Part shown: piece after piece, positions 4,030 through 30,537 of the stretch
Layout: each line of letters starts with the position of its first letter
Position numbering within the stretch: the stretch's first letter is position 1
From: Planctomycetota bacterium
Lineage (GTDB): Bacteria; Planctomycetota; Phycisphaerae; Phycisphaerales; SM1A02
DNA: 45,502 nt
Direction: 5' to 3'
Assembly: GCA_022562915.1 (NCBI GenBank)
Contig: JADFOJ010000021.1
Location: forward strand, 1-45,502
Translations under genes and position numbers: made by a program
The notes under the pieces: generated by a model
What the model saw: only the letters and a program-made list of their open reading frames with translations
Told to the model about the DNA's origin: nothing
Databases searched by the model: none

Positions 4030-4479
4030 ATGGCCGGCAATTTCAACAAAGTGTTCCTGATGGGCAACCTCACTCGCGACATCGAGCTGAAGCACACCCC
4101 GAGCGATCAGTCCGTCGCGACGATCGGCATTGCGGTGAACCGGCGTTACACGACGAAGGACGGTGAAAAACGCGAGGATACGACCTTCGTGGACTGCGAG
4201 GCGTGGGGTCGGACGGCGGAGGTCATGAGCCAGTATCTCTCCAAGGGCTCGCCGGTCTTCATCGAGGGTCGACTCAAGCTCGACCAGTGGGACGATCGGG
4301 AGACGGGCAAGAAACGATCCAAGCTCCTGGTCGTCATCGAGACTTTTCAGTTCGTCGACAGCAAGGGCAGCGGTGGCGGTGGCGGCGGCGGCGGACAACC
4401 CGCTCCGGCCGGCGCGGCCGTGGGGCAGGGAAGCGGTCCCGAACACGCTCCCGTCGACGACGCAGAGATTCCTTTCTAA
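4030..4479 (+). CDS. ssb: Single-stranded DNA-binding protein
   Basis: A 149-residue SSB that coats single-stranded DNA during replication, recombination and repair. The OB-fold spans about residues 1-112 and starts NKVFLMGNLTRDIELKHTPS, with the conserved WG and the YLSKGSPVFIEGRL strand. A Gly-rich linker including eight consecutive glycines follows. The C-terminal acidic tip DDAEIPF is the docking peptide for SSB-interacting proteins. The start is ATG 4030, preceded by GGGAGCAGGA; an open frame upstream is non-coding. It sits between rpsF and rplI as in most bacteria. Confidence 0.97.
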   Translation: MAGNFNKVFLMGNLTRDIELKHTPSDQSVATIGIAVNRRYTTKDGEKREDTTFVDCEAWGRTAEVMSQYLSKGSPVFIEGRLKLDQWDDRETGKKRSKLLVVIETFQFVDSKGSGGGGGGGGQPAPAGAAVGQGSGPEHAPVDDAEIPF

Positions 4480-5459: not shown

Positions 5460-5802
5460 AACCGCGCCCACGCCAGGTCGAGCGGGCACCCGCTCGCGAC
5501 CATGGACGCAATGTCGCGCAGATGCTTGTCCGAGCCGCCGGCGACGCTCGAGCGCCTTTGCCGGCAGCGGGTCCTCGCCCGCCGGGTAGAAGTCGGCCTT
5601 CATCCCGGTCGCGTTCTGGATGACGTTGAAGTGCCCGCGCGCCGCCCGCCTGGGCGAGGGCGAGCCTGAGCACGACGTTGACGTCCGTCGTCATGCGCGG
5701 CTCGCCGTACGCCATCGCGCCGACGGATCCCGTGACCATGTACACGATGCCGAGCCGGTCGAGCGGTTCAATGAACGTGCCGATCCAGTCAGGCAGCGCC
5801 AT
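5453..5802 (-). pseudogene. Frameshifted nucleotidyltransferase (MNT-like) remnant
   Basis: Remains of a small minimal nucleotidyltransferase. The first frame, from ATG 5802, gives GIVYMVTGSVGAMAYGEP, then RMTTDVNVVLRLALA, which matches the GS-x(n)-DxD motif except that the second Asp is Asn. Homologous sequence then continues in a second frame (FNVIQNATGMKADFYPAGED, about 5650-5530) and ends in a third (GGSDKHLRDIASMVASGCPL then DLAWARLK, to a stop at 5453-5455). At least two frameshifts and probably internal deletions are therefore needed. The stop lies inside the 60-bp hairpin. It overlaps its small upstream partner by 14 nt, a residue of an original two-gene cassette. Confidence 0.75.
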
Positions 5803-5944
5803 TCAGGAGATACTCGCGCAGTCGCAGCGCGCTCGAACGCAACTGGTCTGCGAGATCGAGCTTCTGCTCGAAGGTCATGCGTTTCCACGCCGCGACTTGT
5901 TCGGGGCTCGGGCGATCCGGCTTGATGAACGGGGCGGCGGCCAT
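5789..5944 (-). CDS. Small helical protein, partner of the broken nucleotidyltransferase
   Basis: A 51-residue ORF on the minus strand, starting at ATG 5944 and ending within the start region of the nucleotidyltransferase remnant. Its middle, PSPEQVAAWKRMTFEQKLDL then ADQL, resembles the short W-x(n)-MTPEQKL-type proteins that I recall often sitting directly upstream of MNT-type nucleotidyltransferases. The family usually runs about 15-20 residues longer, so this copy may be cut short at its C-terminus. The function is unknown; the context suggests a defunct two-gene cassette, possibly of toxin-antitoxin type. Confidence 0.5.
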   Translation of the reverse strand: MAAAPFIKPDRPSPEQVAAWKRMTFEQKLDLADQLRSSALRLREYLLNGAA

Positions 5945-5966: not shown

Positions 5967-6347
5967 TTATTTCACGAAGTGCAGCTCGAGATACCGCGCG
6001 ACGTAATCCAGGATGCTCGACGCCTCGGGTATATCGGGGTTGCTCGTCGGGCCCGCCGGCTCGAAGCGCATGCCCCGGAAACGATCCGCGGCGTCCGCCA
6101 GCGGCAGGCCGTACTGCAGGGCGAGACTGAACGCCCGGCAGAAGCCCTGGATCAGGCCCGACAACGTCGAGCCCTCTTTGCTCATCTTGATGAATATCTC
6201 GCCGGGAGAGTCGTCCTCGAAGAGCCCGATGGTGAGGTAGCCTTCAAAGCCGGCAACGGCGAACTTGTGGGTCACCGAGCGGCGGGTCACCGGAAGAACC
6301 CGGCGCCGGCCGATCTGAAACTCCGTCGAGGGCGCTGGAGCGTGCAT
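5967..6347 (-). CDS. Stand-alone C-terminal (TSCPD-type) domain of B12-dependent ribonucleotide reductase
   Basis: A 126-residue protein matching the segment of adenosylcobalamin-dependent ribonucleotide reductase (NrdJ) that follows the catalytic barrel. It shows LPVTRRSVTHKFAVAGFEGY, then LTIGL, PGEIFIKMSKEGSTLSGL, LALQYGLPL and MRFEPAGPTSNPDIP. It stops where a full NrdJ would continue into the zinc/redox Cys-rich tail, so both the catalytic core and the terminal thiols are absent. It begins 6 nt after the mfd stop and is probably the last gene of that operon. It could act as an accessory subunit or regulator of a split reductase; a role by itself is not known to me. The ATG at 6347 is the only start before the conserved part. 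Confidence 0.72.
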   Translation of the reverse strand: MHAPAPSTEFQIGRRRVLPVTRRSVTHKFAVAGFEGYLTIGLFEDDSPGEIFIKMSKEGSTLSGLIQGFCRAFSLALQYGLPLADAADRFRGMRFEPAGPTSNPDIPEASSILDYVARYLELHFVK

Positions 6348-6353
6348 GCGGTA

Positions 6354-9300
6354 TCAATCGGTCGAAACACACGCGCGGTCACTACTTTTCAGTCGGGCCA
6401 CCAGAACGGTGACGATCGAGAGACCCTCCAGGTACGCTCTCGGCGGGCGGTAATACACCAGGGTCTCTCCCTTGCCGTCCGGGGCCTCGACGAGCCGCGC
6501 GGTGCCCTTCGCCGCGGAAAGCCTTTCATGGATCTCGCCGGGACGGTCCGCCCTGAGAATGACGTCGTTCTCGTGCCGCGTGATCGTACGAATGCCGTTG
6601 AGTGCCCCCAGCACGCGCAGCTCGGCGAGGCGGGCGAGCGTCACCGCAGCGTCCGGAAGGGGACCGTACGCGGTGGTGAGATCGTGCTCGACGCGGGCGA
6701 GTTCCTCCAGGCTGTCCGCCCGGCTGAACCGCCGGTACGCTTCCATGCGCCTGGCCGTGGAGGGGATATAGCCTCGCGGCAGTGCCCCGGTGATACCCAG
6801 GTCCACCGTCGTGTCGACGGAGCTGAGCTTCGGCTCGTTCTTCAATTCCCCCACGGCGTGTTCCAGCAGCCGGCAGTACATGTCGTACCCGACCGAGGCG
6901 ATGTGGCCGGATTGCTCCGGGCCCAGCAGGTTGCCGGCCCCGCGGATCTCCAGGTCGCGCAGGGCGATCCGGAACCCCGCGCCGAGCATCGAGAACTGCT
7001 CGATGGCCTGGAGCCGCCTCATGGCGGCCTGCTGGACGACCCGGTCCTCCGGCAGCAGCAGGTAGCAGTAGGCGCGATGCTTGTAGCGGCCGACCCTGCC
7101 ACGGAGCTGGTGCAGCTCCGAGAGACCGAACCGGTCGGCGTTGCTGACGAACATCGTGTTGGCGGTCGGAATGTCGATGCCGCTCTCGATGATGGTCGTG
7201 CAGACCAGGACGTCGACCTCGCGGCGCAGGAACTTGAGCATGACTGCTTCGAGCCGGCGCGCCCCCATCTGACCGTGGCCGACGACCACCCGCGCCTCGG
7301 GCACGAGTTGCTGCACCGTGTCGGCAACGGACTGGATGTCATGCACGCGGTTGTGCACGAAGAAGACCTGTCCCTCGCGAGCAAGCTCCCGCCTGATTCC
7401 CCGCTGGATGCGCCGGGGGTCCCAGGAGAGGACCTCCGTGACGATCGCCCTGCGGTCCAGCGGTGGAGTGGTCAGTGAGCTGATGTCCCTCAGCTTCAGC
7501 ATCGCCATGTGCAGCGTCCGTGGGATCGGCGTCGCGGTGAGCGTCAGCACGTCCGCGGTCAAACGGAACGAGAGCAGCTTCTGCTTGTGGCGGACGCCGA
7601 ATCGCTGCTCCTCGTCGATGATGACAAGCCCCAGGTCGGCGAAGCGAACGTCCTTGCTCAACAGGCGGTGCGTGCCGATCACGACGTCGACCTGCCCGAG
7701 CCTGACCGCCTTGAGTATCTCCGCCTGTTGCCTGGCGGTCTTGAAGCGGCTCAGTGACTCGATCCGGAACGGATAGTCCGCGAACCGGCCGCGAAACGTC
7801 CGTTCGTGCTGCTCCGCCAGGACCGTCGTCGGGACCAGGACGACCACCTGTTTGCCGAACTCCACCGCCTTGAACGTCGCGCGAATGGCGACCTCGGTCT
7901 TGCCGAAACCGACGTCCCCGCAGATGAGCCGGTCGCTGGGCTGTGGATTGCTCATGTCGCGCTTCACCTGCGCGATTGCCGTGAGCTGGTCCCGCGTCTC
8001 CTCGTACGGGAACTCCGCCTCGAACTCCGTCTGCCACGGTGTGTCGGCCGGATAGCGGATGCCCGGCCGCGACGCCCGGGCCGCCTGGACGCGCAGCATC
8101 TCGCCGGCGAGCTCCCGGACGGCGTCGGAGACCTGCTGCTTCTGTCCCGCCCAGCGGCGGCCGCCGAGGTGCGACAGCTCCGGCGTGCCCTGGAAGGAGC
8201 CGAGGTACTTCTGGACGAGCTCGATCCTCGACGCCGGGACGTGGAGCTTCGACCCGCCGGCAAATTCCAGTGTCAGGAACTCTTCGCCCCAGCCGCGGCC
8301 CGCGAGCCGATCGAGCCCCAGGAACCGCGCGAGCCCGTGATCGCGGTGCACGACGATGTCACCGATCTCGAAATCGAGGTAGCGATCCGTGGAGTGCGCC
8401 GCGCGACGCCGGACGTGGCGCCGCAGATGATACCGGTGCAGCAGTTCGTGGTACGGCACCAGCGCGACGGGCACGGGCGGCTCCGCCCAGATGAATCCGC
8501 GGTGCAGGTAGTGGGTCTGGATGACGATGTTCGCCTCCGGAGCACCCTCGGCAAGCAGTTCTCGCATCCGCTGCGACTCGCCGTCGTTCTGACAGAGCAC
8601 GACCGTCGGCGTCTGCCCGGCGAGTTCGCCGAGTTCCCGGACCGCCTCGGACGCGTTCTCGGCAAACGGCGGCAGAACCTCGACAGGCAGCGTCACCGGC
8701 ACATCGACCGCGCCCCCGGAGTACTGGTTGATCTCGACGACGGCATGGCACCGATCGGTCAGCGCCTCGAGCACTTCGGCCAGCGTCAGCAGCCCGCGCC
8801 CGTCGTCGGCGCGGTCCAGGTAGCTGCGTCCCTGCTCCGCGATCTCGACGATCTCCGCCAGCAGCACGACCGTCTCGCCCGGCAGGTACCCCGCCAGCGG
8901 TATCCCCGACTCGCCCGGCCCGACCGGGCCGACGGACATGCCGACGATCTCGACGACATCCAGGCGGCGGTCCGAGCCCATCGTCTCGATATCCACGTCG
9001 AAGAGAGCTTCGATCTCGTCGCCGAAGAAGTCGATGCGGACCGCCGAGCCGGTCGGCAGGTACACGTCCACGATCCCGCCGCGAACGGCGAACTCGCCCG
9101 GCGTCTCGATCGTCTCGACGCGGGCGAAGCCGCTGCCGGTGAGCCAGGCGGCGAGGTCGTCGATGGAGTGCTTGAGGCCGACCCGCAGGACGCGCATCAT
9201 CGCGTCGAGCGTCTCGGCGCGCGGAACCTCCTGCATGAGCGCGTGGATCGGTGCCACCACGACCGCCGGCGCCGGACCGTCGACGAACCGGCGCACGATC

Positions 9301-25148: not shown

Positions 25149-25970
25149 TCAGAACTGGAATCGCACGCTGAGAATCACCGTGTAGTCCGTGGACAGACGC
25201 GGCGACTTCATGCTCCGGACCATCGGCAACTGAACGCCCGCTTCGACGATGAAATCCGGTGTGATGAACTGAATGCCGGGCGAGCCGAAGAGCTCCACGC
25301 TGCCGTCGGTGATGTACCTGCCGTTGAGCTCGAGCAGACCATACAGTCCCCACGGTTCGACGTCGGCTCCTTCGCCGCCGACGATCCGGTGCGACCAGGC
25401 GACGTCGGCGAAGAACTCGTCGTCGCCGGCGAGACCGCCGGCGGTGTTGAGCTTGACGATCAGGTCCCAGTCGAGCCACCACTGCTGCTCCTGGTGCGTC
25501 CAGACCGTACCGATGATCGGATCGACGCTGTCGCTGGAGAACGCGCTGTCGAAGGTCGGGATCTCCAGCCCCGCGATCGCCGCCCAGCGCGTCGTCTTGC
25601 CGAGCTCGTCTTTCTGGTAGAAGCGGAACTTGGCGCGAACGGGAATGTCTCCGATGCCCGTCTCCGAGGTCGACCCGCCGGAGCCGAACTCGACCCTGCG
25701 GTAGACCACCGGAACCGTGCCGATGAGTGCAAGCCGTTCGGTCGCGCCGTAGGCGAGCGTGATCGGCTGGACGATTCGATGCACCACCCGGCCCTGCGGC
25801 GTCGGGTCGTCAAAGAGCCGCGAGTAGCGAAACTGGACCCTGAGAATCACACCGCCCAGCGGCGGCGTGAGGGCGACGTCGGTGTTGATCCCCGCGCCGC
25901 GGGCACACGTCGCGACGATCGCCGCCGACAGCACGGCGGGCCGCCACGGTCTACTCCGGAAGACTGTCAT
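25149..25970 (-). CDS. Outer-membrane beta-barrel protein of the metal locus
   Basis: A 273-residue protein with an N-terminal signal peptide and alternating-residue beta strands, ending VILSVRFQF with a terminal Phe, as in outer-membrane barrels. Segments such as ITLAYGATERLALIGTVPVV and GIGDIPVRAKFRFYQ, and the overall length, resemble the phenol-degradation MetA/transporter-like barrel family. Its 5' end overlaps the upstream HMA gene by about 20 nt from ATG 25970, or 38 nt if GTG 25988 is used. It is therefore a member of the merR-merT type operon. A role in moving metal or a metal complex across the outer membrane is an inference from this position. Confidence 0.7.
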   Translation of the reverse strand: MTVFRSRPWRPAVLSAAIVATCARGAGINTDVALTPPLGGVILRVQFRYSRLFDDPTPQGRVVHRIVQPITLAYGATERLALIGTVPVVYRRVEFGSGGSTSETGIGDIPVRAKFRFYQKDELGKTTRWAAIAGLEIPTFDSAFSSDSVDPIIGTVWTHQEQQWWLDWDLIVKLNTAGGLAGDDEFFADVAWSHRIVGGEGADVEPWGLYGLLELNGRYITDGSVELFGSPGIQFITPDFIVEAGVQLPMVRSMKSPRLSTDYTVILSVRFQF

Positions 25971-26766
25971 CCGAACCCTGTTCAACACGAATGAACGAGA
26001 CCGTGCATCCGGCCGAGGCGAGCCTCTCTCGCAGGAGGTCGAGGTCCGGATCTTTCCCGGTCATCCAGATCTTCACGCGGCCGGTGGCGTGATCCGCCTC
26101 GGCGTGGATCACCGTGTCCAACGCGGCCAGGGCCTTCATCGTGCGCAACGAATCCTGCACGCCGGCAAGCTCATTCACCCCCGCGGTCACCAGCGCACCA
26201 AACTCAAGCGGCGCCCAGCGGTCCAGTACGATCTCCCATGAAGAGTCACCGTTACGGGCCCGCACGACCCCCGCAACGCGGACGCGCCGCGCGCCGTGCG
26301 CACCCCGGCGTCGAGCCGAGAGCTTCACGAGGTCCCGCCAGGATTCCCGACGATCGGCCTGGTCGCCGGGTCGCAGGACCACGGCCGGGCCGCGACCCCC
26401 ATCGGCCAGCAGAAGCGATGTCGCCGAGTCGTCCGCAGGGTCTCGTCGCACGGTGCCGGTCACCCACACTGAAATGTCGCGCGGCGTAAAGCCCGCCTCG
26501 CGGATCGCACGCCGGACGTCCGCCGGATCGAACTCGACGTCGGTGTTCCAGGTGAACCGCGTGGTCCCGGTTTCAAGGCTCGTCTTGACCCCGGCCGTGC
26601 GGTCCACGCCGGCGAGTTCACCGAGCCGCGCATCAACGCCGTGTACGCAGAAGGGGCATCCCAGGCCGTCCACGCGCACACTGACCTGCTCGACTGCGGC
26701 CGGCGCGGAAGCGGCTAGTGCCAGGGCGCCGAGCACGCACGAAAGGTTCGTCGGCGTCATGGACAT
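25951..26766 (-). CDS. Secreted heavy-metal-associated (HMA) domain protein
   Basis: A 271-residue exported protein with a signal peptide (about residues 1-23) followed at once by an HMA/MerP-like domain with the metal site GLGCPFC (C37, C40). The middle (about 100-190) is a beta-rich region containing DISVWVTGTVRRDP. The C-terminus (about 205-260) looks like a second ferredoxin-like fold, VIHAEADHATGRVKIWMTGK, without a C-x-x-C. It lies 10 nt downstream of the merT-fusion gene and overlaps the barrel gene. It probably carries metal in the periplasm, as MerP does, but it is three times larger than MerP. ATG 26766 was chosen for the signal peptide; ATG 26793 is possible. Confidence 0.75.
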   Translation of the reverse strand: MSMTPTNLSCVLGALALAASAPAAVEQVSVRVDGLGCPFCVHGVDARLGELAGVDRTAGVKTSLETGTTRFTWNTDVEFDPADVRRAIREAGFTPRDISVWVTGTVRRDPADDSATSLLLADGGRGPAVVLRPGDQADRRESWRDLVKLSARRRGAHGARRVRVAGVVRARNGDSSWEIVLDRWAPLEFGALVTAGVNELAGVQDSLRTMKALAALDTVIHAEADHATGRVKIWMTGKDPDLDLLRERLASAGCTVSFIRVEQGSDDSLPE

Positions 26767-26776
26767 GATCCGTCTC

Positions 26777-27721
26777 TCATTCCGGCCGGTCATCGGCGTT
26801 CGCCGCAACGGAATACCCGGCGGACCGGACGGCCTCGACGAGCGGTTCGTTGCCTGAGAGAACCGCCGAATCGATCGAGATGACGGCCTGGCGGTCCGGG
26901 TAGGAGACTCGTGCGTCCAGGACGCCCGGTACCTTTGCCAGCGCCGTCCGCAGCACGACGGCGCATGCGTCACAGGTCATGCCCTCGACGGCAAGGGTCA
27001 CGGTGATCACCTCGGCTGCGGGGATCGCGGTCTCCGCGGTGGCGCTGTCGCCCAGCAGGTAGCCGATCGTGTTCGGGAAGGTCACAGTGACGATCACGAG
27101 TCCCGTCGCCACCCAGATCATCACCCGGTTGAACCGCCGCAATCCCGATCGTGGCGCTGCGCACTCGCTTCCGGCGGCGCACACCGCAGGGCGGAAGTAC
27201 ACGAAGTAGAAGCCGGTCGCCAGCATCACGGCGGCCGCGCCAATAAAGAGCAGCCTGTATTTCGCCATCCAGCCGGAGATCCCGCCCGCCGAGACCCCGA
27301 ACCCGATCAGCGCAAGCGGAACCCAGCAGCACGCCGACGAGGCAATCGCCGATCCTACGGCGCCGGCGGTGGCGAGCATGCCCGCACGCTCACCCGTGCG
27401 CTGTTCCGTCGGCGCATCACCAGCCTGCGCTTCGAGCAGCGCCTGGGTGATCATCGCACGGTCGGGCATCCCCCGGCCGCCGTACGTCCGGCACGAGAGG
27501 CCGAAGTCGCGTCGCTGCCGTGCGTCGGGCTCGACATCGACGCCGTCCACACGAACGGACGGTGAGCCGAGGAATCGCCGCCGCCCGGCGTCGGCCGGAC
27601 CGGTCACCTCTGTTGCGACAATGTCGGCGTCGACTCCGAGTTCGGCGACGACATCCTGCACGAGGTCCACGGTGGGTTGATGGTTGGGGCAACCCTTGAA
27701 GTAGAAGATTTCGACTCTCAT
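26777..27721 (-). CDS. Fusion of DF-family thiol domain, MerT transporter and HMA domain
   Basis: A 314-residue three-part protein. Residues 1-98: a thioredoxin-like DF-family domain (IFYFKGCPNHQPTVDLV, RFLGSPSVRVDGVDVEP, FGLSCRTYGG; C11 and C77). Residues about 115-225: MerT with three membrane helices, the paired cysteines of helix 1 (SSACCWVPL, C131-C132) and the cytoplasmic C-x5-C (C181, C187), all known Hg(II) relay residues. Residues about 238-310: an HMA domain with GMTCDAC (C250, C253). It probably imports Hg(II), or a related soft metal, and hands it on between its own domains. A merR lies 60 nt upstream in the same direction. ATG 27721 matches the DF-domain start; a TTG at 27745 is less likely. 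Confidence 0.82.
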   Translation of the reverse strand: MRVEIFYFKGCPNHQPTVDLVQDVVAELGVDADIVATEVTGPADAGRRRFLGSPSVRVDGVDVEPDARQRRDFGLSCRTYGGRGMPDRAMITQALLEAQAGDAPTEQRTGERAGMLATAGAVGSAIASSACCWVPLALIGFGVSAGGISGWMAKYRLLFIGAAAVMLATGFYFVYFRPAVCAAGSECAAPRSGLRRFNRVMIWVATGLVIVTVTFPNTIGYLLGDSATAETAIPAAEVITVTLAVEGMTCDACAVVLRTALAKVPGVLDARVSYPDRQAVISIDSAVLSGNEPLVEAVRSAGYSVAANADDRPE

Positions 27722-27766
27722 GAGGTGTTCCACGATACGGCCCAAGCCCCCTCATGGGTCTTAACG

Positions 27767-27788
27767 ACCTTGTACCGCGGTTCAACGT
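27767..27788. promoter_or_regulatory. Candidate MerR-type operator
   Basis: A 22-bp dyad of ACCTTGTACC and GGTTCAACGT around GC has 8 of 10 matching arm positions. It overlaps the end of merR and lies about 45 nt upstream of the merT-fusion start. MerR operators are dyads of this size placed between -35 and -10. A TTGAAC on the minus strand fits a -35, but the -10 is not clear (GTTAAG or TAAGAC are candidates). Confidence 0.4.
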
Positions 27789-28252
27789 TGCCGTTTCTTC
27801 GAACCCTCGCGAATCTTTTTGCCACCCCCGGCGGTCTGTGACGGCTGTGCGGCCGCATTGAGGTCCTCCAGCACCTCGCAGCGGCCCGTGGCCGCGGAAC
27901 CCCGGCAGAGTGCAAGCGATGACTCCAACACCCTCCGGACGTGACCGAGGTCCCGCAACTGCCCGCGGACGCGCGTGAGCCTTGTCTCGATGAGCGCCTG
28001 GATCTCGGCGCAGGGGGCGGTCGCGCCGTCACGCAGGTTCAGCAATGCCGCGATGTCCTGGATGGTGAGCCCGGTCTCCCGCGCGGCCCGGATGAACCGC
28101 AGGCGCTCGATCGACGGCTCGTCGTAGACCCGGTAGTTGCCGCGAGTGCGCCCCGTCGGCGCGAGCAGGCCCGCCCGCTCGTAGTACCGCAGCGTCGAGG
28201 TCGGAACCTCGACCGCGCGGGCAAGCTCTCCGATGGTGTATTCGGGCTCCAT
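27782..28252 (-). CDS. merR: MerR-family regulator with complete Hg(II) ligand set
   Basis: A 156-residue MerR-family activator. The N-terminal winged helix reads YTIGELARAVEVPTSTLRYY and onward, followed by a dimerisation helix. Three cysteines sit at residues 81, 116 and 125 (APCAEIQ; LCRGSAATGRC), almost exactly the Hg ligands C82, C117 and C126 of Tn501 MerR, including the C-x8-C loop. Hg(II) or a similar thiophilic metal is therefore the likely inducer. A Lys/Arg-rich tail follows. It reads in the same direction as the merT-fusion gene rather than divergently as in most mer operons. The start is ATG 28252, where homology begins. Confidence 0.87.
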   Translation of the reverse strand: MEPEYTIGELARAVEVPTSTLRYYERAGLLAPTGRTRGNYRVYDEPSIERLRFIRAARETGLTIQDIAALLNLRDGATAPCAEIQALIETRLTRVRGQLRDLGHVRRVLESSLALCRGSAATGRCEVLEDLNAAAQPSQTAGGGKKIREGSKKRQR

Positions 28253-28393: not shown

Positions 28394-30139
28394 CTATTGT
28401 AAGTCCCGGCGCCGGCTCGCGATGTAGTGCCGCATCATGGTGTCCACGTCGTACGAGCGCGCGTACAGCCGGTCGATGACATCCTGCCGCGTGTCGGGGC
28501 CGGCGACCGTGCGATACCAGTGCTCGGCCATGATTTTCATCCCCAGCTCGTTGGGATGCAGTTCGTCGTCGTCGAAGCACCCCGGGAAGCCCTCGTAGGT
28601 CGGCGTCCAGACGTCGGGGCCCTCGTACACCCAGTCCAGGCCGCCGGCCAGCAGCGCCGCCAGCGCCAGCCGCTCGTTGCCGACCTCCGGCTCGACGGGC
28701 TTCTTGTAGATGTGCATCCCGATGTACACCCGCTCGAGGCCCAGGTCGCGCAACCTTCGCGACAACGTCTCCAGCGCGATCGCGCCGAGGCGAATGCCCG
28801 CCTCGTCGCCGGGGCTCGTCACCGGTCCGCGCAACGAGCCGGTGAACTGCAAGGACTGCTGGCACAGCGCGATCGAGGGCTCCGGCGCCTCGCCGCGCAG
28901 GCGGGCGTCCGGGCCGAAGTAATCGCGGACCATGGCGGCCACCGTCCGCGCGTAATCGCTCGACGACGGATCGCCGATCCATCGCTCCACCGCGGCACCG
29001 CCGATGACCGCGTTGAGCACGTGGTACCGGCGCTCGCCGCCGGCGTGCTGGTCGAGCATGTCCTGGAGCATCGCCGGCCACGCATAGGAGGTCGAATACC
29101 CGACCACGACGAAGGACTTCTCCGATCCGTCCAGGAGCGTCCGGGCCGGCCTCGGCCCGAAGACCAGCGACTCCGGATGAAACGCCGTCCAGGCGAAGTA
29201 CAACGACTGGACGGTCAGCACATCGGACGGCGCTTCGACGATCGTCATGCCGCTGTCGCCGGCTGCGACAACCACCAGTCCCGACGCGGTCTCCAGGCGC
29301 ACCGGTTCGTCGCGTGCCGCCTCGGCGGAGACGAACGCCGTGTAGTCGCCGGCGATGATCCCCACGCCGAGCGTCTTGGGCGGCAGCGTGTCGCCGTGGA
29401 CGACGGGCATGTACAGGCCGTCGCCGGCGAGGTATTCCCGGACGTGATCGTCTTCCAGGCGGTAGTCCTCGTCGTGGCCCGTCATGACGCTCAGGACCTG
29501 CCCGTCCGGGTGCCGCGCCTTGAACTCGCCGAAACTGATGATGCGCACCGGTCTGTGGTGCAGGCTCTCGCCGGCGTGCGGACCGGTCAGCGCGGTCATG
29601 CCCACCTGGGACCACAGACTGTTGGTGCTGCGGTCATACATGGTCAGGTTCGACCGGTAGAGCATGCCGGAGACGCCGAACTCGGTCGTGCCGCCTCCGG
29701 GCAGCCTGCGATCGATGACGGACGCCGAGTCGCACAGCGGGCAGTACGTCACGGCAATCGGCGTCTCTCCGACGGTGTCGTTGACAATCTCGTGCACGCC
29801 CATGATCGCCAGCGGATAGGCCACCGACTCGCCGTTGATGGAGACCTCGATGACCCGCCCGTCGTCGTCCGGGAAGCTCGCCTCGCCGATGTTCCACCGT
29901 TCGGGTTCGTCCAGAGCGACGATACCGTCCCGATCGACGCCGGGCGAGAACAGGTCGTCGATATCCAGCCGCGGATCGCTCAGGTCGAACTTCGTGAGCA
30001 GTCGTTGCTTGTGGGGTTCATGCCTGGCCTTGCGCTGGGCGAACGAGGGACTGGAACTCGACGAGGCCGCACAGCCACCCAGAAAAACCACCAGAACCAG
30101 GACACCGATGGCTCGCCGTCGCACTGGCATGTCACGCAT
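28394..30139 (-). CDS. Lipoprotein fusing DUF3179 and an SGNH-hydrolase-like domain
   Basis: A 581-residue lipoprotein with signal peptide and lipobox LGGC (Cys near residue 23). The N-terminal half is DUF3179, recognised from SVAYPLAIMGVHEIVNDTVG, TYCPLCDSASVIDRR and GMLYRSNLTMYDR-SLWSQ. The C-terminal half, from about residue 335, looks like an SGNH/GDSL hydrolase. Its GYSTSYAWPAMLQ may carry the nucleophile Ser, NAVIGGA corresponds to the Gly block, and DDDELHPNELGMKIMAEHW is the D-x-x-H-P block. The nucleophile block is non-canonical, so the enzyme call is tentative. The start is ATG 30139, preceded by GGAGAA. Function of DUF3179 is unknown. Confidence 0.75.
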   Translation of the reverse strand: MRDMPVRRRAIGVLVLVVFLGGCAASSSSSPSFAQRKARHEPHKQRLLTKFDLSDPRLDIDDLFSPGVDRDGIVALDEPERWNIGEASFPDDDGRVIEVSINGESVAYPLAIMGVHEIVNDTVGETPIAVTYCPLCDSASVIDRRLPGGGTTEFGVSGMLYRSNLTMYDRSTNSLWSQVGMTALTGPHAGESLHHRPVRIISFGEFKARHPDGQVLSVMTGHDEDYRLEDDHVREYLAGDGLYMPVVHGDTLPPKTLGVGIIAGDYTAFVSAEAARDEPVRLETASGLVVVAAGDSGMTIVEAPSDVLTVQSLYFAWTAFHPESLVFGPRPARTLLDGSEKSFVVVGYSTSYAWPAMLQDMLDQHAGGERRYHVLNAVIGGAAVERWIGDPSSSDYARTVAAMVRDYFGPDARLRGEAPEPSIALCQQSLQFTGSLRGPVTSPGDEAGIRLGAIALETLSRRLRDLGLERVYIGMHIYKKPVEPEVGNERLALAALLAGGLDWVYEGPDVWTPTYEGFPGCFDDDELHPNELGMKIMAEHWYRTVAGPDTRQDVIDRLYARSYDVDTMMRHYIASRRRDLQ

Positions 30140-30234
30140 GGACGATTCTCCGTTCGGGGCGCGCACCTGCCGCCGGCAAGAGAGTATTGCACGATCACAC
30201 GACTCGCAACGATGTTGCCGCGGCGAAAGGCCTG

Positions 30235-30537
30235 TTACGGGGTCGCCTGCCAGGTACCGCGGGGGAATGTACCCACCAGGAACACGGTCCCGATTCCCAT
30301 GCACAGGAAACCGATCCGGTACAGGGTCTCCGCCGAGAGGTACTCGTCCCTGCTCAGCCACGAGCTGACCTTGGTCTTCTCGCCCGCCCAGACGGTCACC
30401 GCGTCGTTGCCGCCGGAGACCGCCTTCATCTCCGCGTCCGCATAGCGCGTGCAGCCCCAGCCGGCCACGAGCAGAACCAGCCCGAGACCCAGCAACATGC
30501 GGCGAATGACGAATCGACCACTCATCATCGGATGCAT
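30235..30537 (-). CDS. Small membrane protein or lipoprotein
   Basis: A 100-residue protein with an N-terminal hydrophobic segment ending in a lipobox-like LLVAGWGC and a second hydrophobic helix near the C-terminus (IGFLCMGIGTVFLVGTF). The segment between is polar (about 40 residues). No family recognised. It could be a two-helix membrane protein or a lipoprotein. Three ATGs (30537, 30528, 30525) are possible starts, and none has a clear ribosome-binding site. Confidence 0.5.
   Translation of the reverse strand: MHPMMSGRFVIRRMLLGLGLVLLVAGWGCTRYADAEMKAVSGGNDAVTVWAGEKTKVSSWLSRDEYLSAETLYRIGFLCMGIGTVFLVGTFPRGTWQATP

Follow-up and report, generated by a model that had tools for sequence, protein, structure and literature searches.

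In the accepted scheme for MerT, periplasmic MerP passes the metal to Cys24/25 in the first transmembrane helix (TM1), from where it moves to Cys76/82 on the cytosolic face and on to MerA (PMC5715351). In the classical Tn501/Tn21 systems these are separate proteins, with MerA as the acceptor. Two fused forms are represented by NCBIfam models. The MerTP fusion (NF033556) joins MerT to a C-terminal HMA, MerP-like domain in a 186-position model without an N-terminal extra domain, and the MerT/CopZ fusion-like heavy metal transport selenoprotein (NF045683) combines MerT with an HMA-type domain and soft-chalcogen chemistry. The DF family (NF049942), for which an NCBIfam model also exists, is little known: its members are usually stand-alone proteins of about 100 aa, so far annotated merely as "(seleno)protein", "thioredoxin family" or "alkylmercury lyase".

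Here we analyze a 45,502-nucleotide stretch of DNA from a bacterium of the phylum Planctomycetota, referred to below as the window. It encodes a protein in which a DF domain forms the N-terminal module of a MerT-HMA transporter. The chain retains the order of cysteine pairs known from the classical MerT, MerP and MerA system (MerP, then MerT TM1, then the MerT cytosolic loop; PMC5715351); unlike that system, it carries its modules in a single protein, and the genome lacks a canonical MerA. The earlier note on this DNA had regarded an N-terminal DF domain on MerT-HMA as new, and the open-access papers on the DF family, the MerTP fusion, SaoL and DF-MerB indeed contain no description of the three-domain architecture.

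Domain architecture and gene neighborhood

The fusion gene and its neighbors occupy the following positions of the window:

25149..25988, (-): outer-membrane-type protein, PF13557 (Phenol_MetA_deg), E 8.3e-13
25951..26766, (-): secreted HMA protein, 271 aa, with an N-terminal signal-like stretch and a GLGCPFC motif, Pfam HMA E 6.9e-9
26777..27721, (-): DF-MerT-HMA fusion gene, 314 aa, ATG at 27721, stop at 26777-26779
26813..26998, (-): HMA domain, residues 242-303, Pfam PF00403, GMTCxxC (C250, C253), predicted periplasmic
27059..27367, (-): MerT domain, residues 119-221, Pfam PF02411, C131-C132 in TM1, C181/C187 in the TM2-TM3 loop
27440..27715, (-): DF family domain with a predicted thioredoxin-like fold, residues 3-94, C11 at 27689-27691, C77 at 27491-27493
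27722..27781, (-): gap of 60 bp between merR and the fusion gene, place of a MerR-type promoter, with a dyad that is strong in relatives and weak here
27782..28252, (-): MerR-family regulator, 156 aa from MEPEYTIG, Pfam MerR_1 4.5e-21, MerR-DNA-bind 2.6e-15

The reading frame of the fusion is free of internal stops over the whole chain. The earlier note had reported three cysteine modules in one chain of 314 aa, and all of them are exactly placed: C11 and C77, C131-C132 with C181-x5-C187, and C250-x2-C253. Its domain assignments also hold, as each domain scores above its cut-off in Pfam or NCBIfam searches. The N-terminal module is a genuine member of the DF family (NF049942, residues 3-94, E 3.6e-32, 110.3 bits against a cut-off of 70) with both conserved cysteines. 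The MerT domain (E 1.1e-11, 45.2 bits, cut-off 32.9) has all the marks of its family, namely the vicinal cysteines in TM1, the x5-spaced pair in the cytosolic loop and three transmembrane helices. The HMA domain (E 1.1e-11, 45.4 bits, cut-off 24.8) contains the GMTCxxC motif, and its predicted model has MerP (1osd) as the top fold match among solved structures.

By Pfam, the protein is of the MerT-HMA kind, yet it lies outside the MerT, MerTP and MerP equivalogs. The chain scores 56.7 bits against the MerT equivalog NF010314 (cut-off 150) and 85.5 bits against the MerTP equivalog NF033556 (cut-off 180; residues 123-305, E 3.3e-24), and its HMA part scores 49.9 bits against the MerP equivalog TIGR02052 (cut-off 92.55). 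Its match to the selenoprotein fusion NF045683, a model without a DF domain, is likewise below the cut-off (E 5.6e-21, 75 bits against 375). The genome of the window contains one MerT.

As in canonical mer operons, a MerR-family gene lies 60 bp upstream of the transport gene. The cysteine set of this regulator (C...C-x8-C) follows the pattern of the divalent soft-metal branch. The secreted HMA protein starts 10 bp downstream of the fusion gene and has a homologue in the MerT-HMA cluster of genome G048 (31% identity over 258 aa). The PF13557 protein is shared more widely with MerT clusters, at 58-60% identity in G459 and G048, 56% in G487 and 39% in G511. A gene for a DUF3179 protein (E 9.9e-62; 28397-30274) precedes merR and has the same orientation.

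Recurrence of the fusion in the order

A first search of 61 genomes, comprising the window's own and its relatives, recovered four further full-length three-domain proteins with 42-45% identity. In the alignment of these first five fusions, C11, C77, C131, C132, C181, C187, C250 and C253 are invariant. With a five-row profile, we then searched 251 genomes of the order and recovered the full-length DF-MerT-HMA protein (profile positions 1 or 2 to at least 306) at 11 loci, which belong to 10 genomes: G000 (the window's own), G030, G044, G047, G055, G487 with two loci, G501, G511, G445 and G560. Both DF cysteines and the TM1 pair of MerT are retained in 13 of 13 chains compared, including those from Acidobacteriota described below.

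A split form also exists, with a DF gene immediately before a MerT-HMA gene in G440 (two loci), G504, G610 and G612; in G504 and G440 the two genes share 4 bp. Partners that are adjacent in some genomes and joined in a single gene in others are a classic sign of one shared process. The split loci might also be taken to mean that DF is a separate gene throughout, and that the fusion stems from a frame error or a chance juxtaposition. We consider the probability of this negligible: the fusion is in frame, with an intact linker, in ten independent genome assemblies, which rules out a frame error or assembly artefact. A sequencing error that joined a separate ORF of about 100 residues to the transporter had been named as a refutation; it fails on the same order being found at full length in 10 genomes.

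In G610 and G612, the gene directly before the DF and MerT-HMA genes encodes a CsoR/RcnR-family regulator and not MerR (L156:624-923, L157:6519-6821). In several relatives, a small secreted Cys-rich protein with the pattern CPGKxxCPxTGExVCxDRCP sits between merR and the DF fusion (L046:6000-6215, L048:5794-6105, L049:4338-4649, L148:7382-7633, L152 within 6278-6727 and L158:7916-8254). The copies of this protein that we tested had no Pfam match. In G036, a multi-domain thioredoxin-like/HMA/DF protein (L052:5194-6807) begins with a similar Cys-rich stretch.

Probable exchange of the N-terminal module

Among 392 genomes of Planctomycetota, most MerT-HMA proteins bear an N-terminal extension other than DF. 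In the proteins examined by profile, this extension is the CopZ N-terminal zinc/2Fe-2S domain (zf_CopZ, here CopZN). The CopZN-MerT-HMA proteins of the same phylum (such as those of G048, G459, G510 and G012) share the core of the window protein, with 51% identity to that of G012, and in G048 and G459 also its neighbors; they differ from it in the N-terminal domain. The neighborhood remains unchanged between the two forms, as shown by the PF13557 homologues in G459 and G048 (CopZN forms) and G487 (DF form).

A tree built from the MerT-HMA core joins the window protein as a pair to the CopZN-fused protein of G012 (support 95/92), and the DF forms do not make up one clade. The starred branches force at least three changes of the DF label in this tree, which is soft, several of its rows being long branches. 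A single origin of the DF fusion is thus unsupported by the core tree. The simplest reading is that DF and CopZN have been exchanged on the MerT-HMA core several times.

Predicted topology and the proposed thiol relay

The model of the full protein predicts long helices at residues 111-143, 149-176 and 192-214. In the chains compared, the TM2-TM3 loop that holds C181/C187 carries 4-8 Lys/Arg, against 0-2 after TM3. Under the positive-inside rule, these counts suggest a cytosolic position for DF and the C181/C187 loop and a periplasmic one for HMA. In this predicted topology, HMA lies on the same side as MerP, and DF is the only one of the two soluble domains in the cytosol. In the DF-MerT proteins of Acidobacteriota, a separate MerP takes the role of HMA. 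The earlier note had the chain relaying Hg(II) or another soft metal between its own domains in the cytoplasm. Its three thiol modules in one chain stand; its wholly cytoplasmic setting is rejected on the three transmembrane helices and the Lys/Arg distribution, which leave only DF on that side.

The spacing of C181-x5-C187 equals that of Cys76 and Cys82 in MerT (PMC5715351). With the same cysteine order and the same spacing, DF would sit where MerA receives the metal. We propose, at about even chances, that the protein is an inner-membrane soft-metal handler under the control of MerR, with Hg(II) as the likeliest metal, and that the chain brings along both a periplasmic donor and a cytosolic acceptor. 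HMA, at the C-terminus, would catch the metal in the periplasm on C250/C253, as MerP does, and hand it to the vicinal C131-C132 in TM1 of MerT, from which it would pass to C181/C187 on the cytosolic loop and then to C11/C77 of the N-terminal DF domain as the final acceptor. Beyond DF, the metal might be sequestered, transferred to small thiols or passed to some reductase. The order of hand-off up to the loop is modeled by analogy on the MerT literature, and we infer both DF as the acceptor and Hg(II) as the natural metal.

Predicted fold and probable working residues of the DF domain

The AlphaFold model of DF alone, made with AF2 from two sequences, has a pLDDT of 84.5, and thioredoxins are the structures that it resembles best (Z 9.9, with an rmsd of 2.6 over 81 residues). 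The model is in keeping with the thioredoxin-like fold that the earlier note assumed for this domain. The Pfam family Thioredoxin_3 scores 20.5 bits on DF, under its cut-off of 24.8. Judged from the alignment, C11 would take the place of the first active-site cysteine, with the second replaced by histidine (CPNH), and C77 would lie before the last helix.

Stand-alone DF genes in G057, G450 and G023 contain in-frame TGA codons at exactly two places, which are the positions of C11 and C77 (L055 at about 5640-5930 in G057, L163 in G450 and L054 at about 4130-4380 (-) in G023). All three genomes have strong tRNA-Sec matches (65-70 bits, whereas cross-hits stay at about 52 or less), and the tRNA-Sec of G023 is confirmed by ARAGORN. 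The replacement of both cysteines by selenocysteine in relatives suggests that C11 and C77 form a functional pair, and marks them as the probable working pair of DF, a diselenol in some relatives. The TGA codons that G504 and G612 have in their DF stretches proved to be ordinary gene-end stop codons, which rules them out as selenocysteine. The double-TGA proteins of G057 and G450 have a lipoprotein-like N-terminus, and the gene in G057 adjoins MerR and a CzcA/CDF (RND/CDF) heavy-metal cluster.

DF on other mercury proteins

The profile search detected DF joined to MerT without HMA in two genomes of Acidobacteriota, G822 and G956. Their operons are compact, consisting of merR, the fused DF-merT gene and merP, to which G822 adds merC and a flavoprotein gene. 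The MerT parts score 178-182 bits, above the NF010314 cut-off of 150, the MerP of G956 scores 118 bits against 92.55, and the MerC of G822 is above its Pfam cut-off. As read from sequence, MerP carries a signal peptide. The regulators of both operons score best as MerR, yet under the MerR cut-off. In a further genome of Acidobacteriota, G785, a four-module DF-CopZN-MerT-HMA protein (L213:4874-6361), whose MerT and HMA parts score under the Pfam cut-offs, adjoins a MerR gene and a P-type ATPase. DF joined to MerT was found in none of 398 sampled genomes of Pseudomonadota and in none of 396 sampled genomes of Actinomycetota, where DF itself is common.

On two Streptomyces plasmids, DF lies N-terminal to MerB, the annotated organomercurial lyase (L182:4001-4972, L183:4001-4978; Pfam MerB 125-136 bits). 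The DF part of these proteins scores 63-68 bits, just below the cut-off of 70. Like the window protein, they carry DF at the N-terminus of a mer protein with the gene of a metal-responsive regulator adjacent; the partner of DF is here a lyase, and in the window a transporter. In Pseudonocardia, where a MerR-family gene lies upstream, the DF gene comes after a MerB-family gene. The DF-MerB fusions are the probable source of the name "alkylmercury lyase" on stand-alone DF proteins. The coupling of DF to mercury proteins is recurrent and apparently independent. The soft-metal link of DF proposed in the earlier note is borne out by DF-MerT in mer operons and by the DF-MerB fusions.

MerA and the operators

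The window's genome, in an assembly that is 93% complete, contains no canonical MerA: its best match to TIGR02053 reaches 387 bits against a cut-off of 454 and ends at profile position 454 of 465. No MerA above this cut-off was found in any genome with a DF-MerT-HMA fusion or split pair either. The best flavoproteins there score at most 407 bits, and nearly all of these matches stop short of the C-terminal cysteine region. A published survey lists a single MerA from Planctomycetes (PMC8261052). We reject the absence of MerA as a hallmark of the DF fusion, because it is likewise missing from most genomes whose MerT-HMA has a CopZ-type or other N-terminus: MerA scores over the cut-off in one of 25 MerT-HMA genomes with other N-termini, plus G048, and on the CopZN side the exceptions are G048 and G288. 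The suggestion of the earlier note that the chain acts in place of handing the metal to MerA is therefore compatible with the missing canonical MerA, and loses force from its equal absence in most MerT-HMA genomes with other N-termini. A search of the fusion genomes for a known Hg sink other than MerA found none; with neither present, import of Hg(II) would need a further end point.

MerR-type promoters with TTGACC, perfect 9-bp dyad arms and a 20-bp spacer stand directly upstream of the fusion gene in G487 and G501. Less perfect ones precede the DF gene in G504 and follow merR in G055, and the dyad in the window is weak. In G044, an Hg-type dyad (TCCGTAG-4-GTACGGC) precedes merR; the consensus of the Hg operator is TCCGTAC-4-GTACGGA (PMC1526738). 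A near-perfect ZntR-type operator (CTCTGGAGTCGACTCCAGA) lies upstream of merR in the Acidobacteriota merR-[DF-merT]-merP operons (L209, L210). Its presence on such operons suggests that operator type alone may not reveal the metal. Hg(II) is most likely the metal of the family, and a candidate metal for the window's own operon.

Alternative readings

The natural metal may instead be Zn/Cd/Pb or Cu, with the homology to MerT misleading in this clade. The regulator of the window scores higher as ZntR (106-109 bits) and CadR (101) than as MerR (97), all below the specificity cut-offs, and the ZntR-type operator in Acidobacteriota, the CsoR-family regulators in G610 and G612 and the RND/CDF heavy-metal cluster next to the DF selenoprotein gene of G057 point the same way. 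However, MerT and MerP score above their cut-offs in the sister operons, the regulators of G044, G504, G822 and G956 score best as MerR, and both the Hg-type operator in G044 and the DF-MerB fusions speak for mercury. We give this reading perhaps a minor share of the probability. The direction of transport might also be reversed, with DF taking up cytosolic metal and passing it through MerT and HMA to the secreted HMA protein and out via the PF13557 protein. Import alone looks harmful in genomes without MerA, and the conserved neighbors, a secreted HMA protein and an outer-membrane-type protein, would suit such a path. Against export, MerT has an established role in import and is not known to be coupled to energy for the outward path, and both DF-MerT forms of Acidobacteriota accompany merP, one of them also merC, which is an import set. 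We find export improbable.

DF could also serve as a dedicated thiol reductant that keeps the cytosolic cysteines of MerT reduced, or frees the metal, which would then go to low-molecular-weight thiols. Its predicted thioredoxin-like fold, the closeness of C11 to the place of the first active-site cysteine and selenocysteine at both positions in relatives, which is typical of redox sites, are all in keeping with this role. In DF, however, the CXXC of thioredoxin is CPNH, so that the second cysteine is remote; the window has no linked dedicated reductase, and the repeated fusion to MerB, an enzyme that sets Hg(II) free in the cytosol, suits an acceptor equally or better. This makes the reductant role an unlikely one in our judgment, and DF as the cytosolic acceptor of an importer is the reading that we retain.

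Implications

The repeated fusion or pairing of DF with MerT, MerT-HMA and MerB, together with its paired selenocysteines, gives a little-known family a testable role in soft-metal handling. The apparently independent recurrence of DF on mercury proteins extends the scope beyond the original observation. Another question that follows is how Planctomycetota cope with mercury when they have MerT-type importers and no canonical MerA. A more speculative extension, which we rate as doubtful, is that DF might be a general cytosolic acceptor of Hg(II), with a dithiol or diselenol site, that docks on both MerT and MerB. Planctomycetota could then handle mercury independently of MerA, the metal being drawn in and fixed on a thiol or selenol site or passed on, as opposed to being reduced to Hg(0). 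The single chain offers a convenient object for studying a complete periplasm-to-cytosol thiol relay.

DF also occurs in other settings. In a genome of Actinomycetota, an ABC-2 type transporter permease carries a fused DF-like domain (L212:4180-5352), and a DF gene on an IMG/VR contig (L180:2955-3263) has neighbors that resemble phage structural genes.
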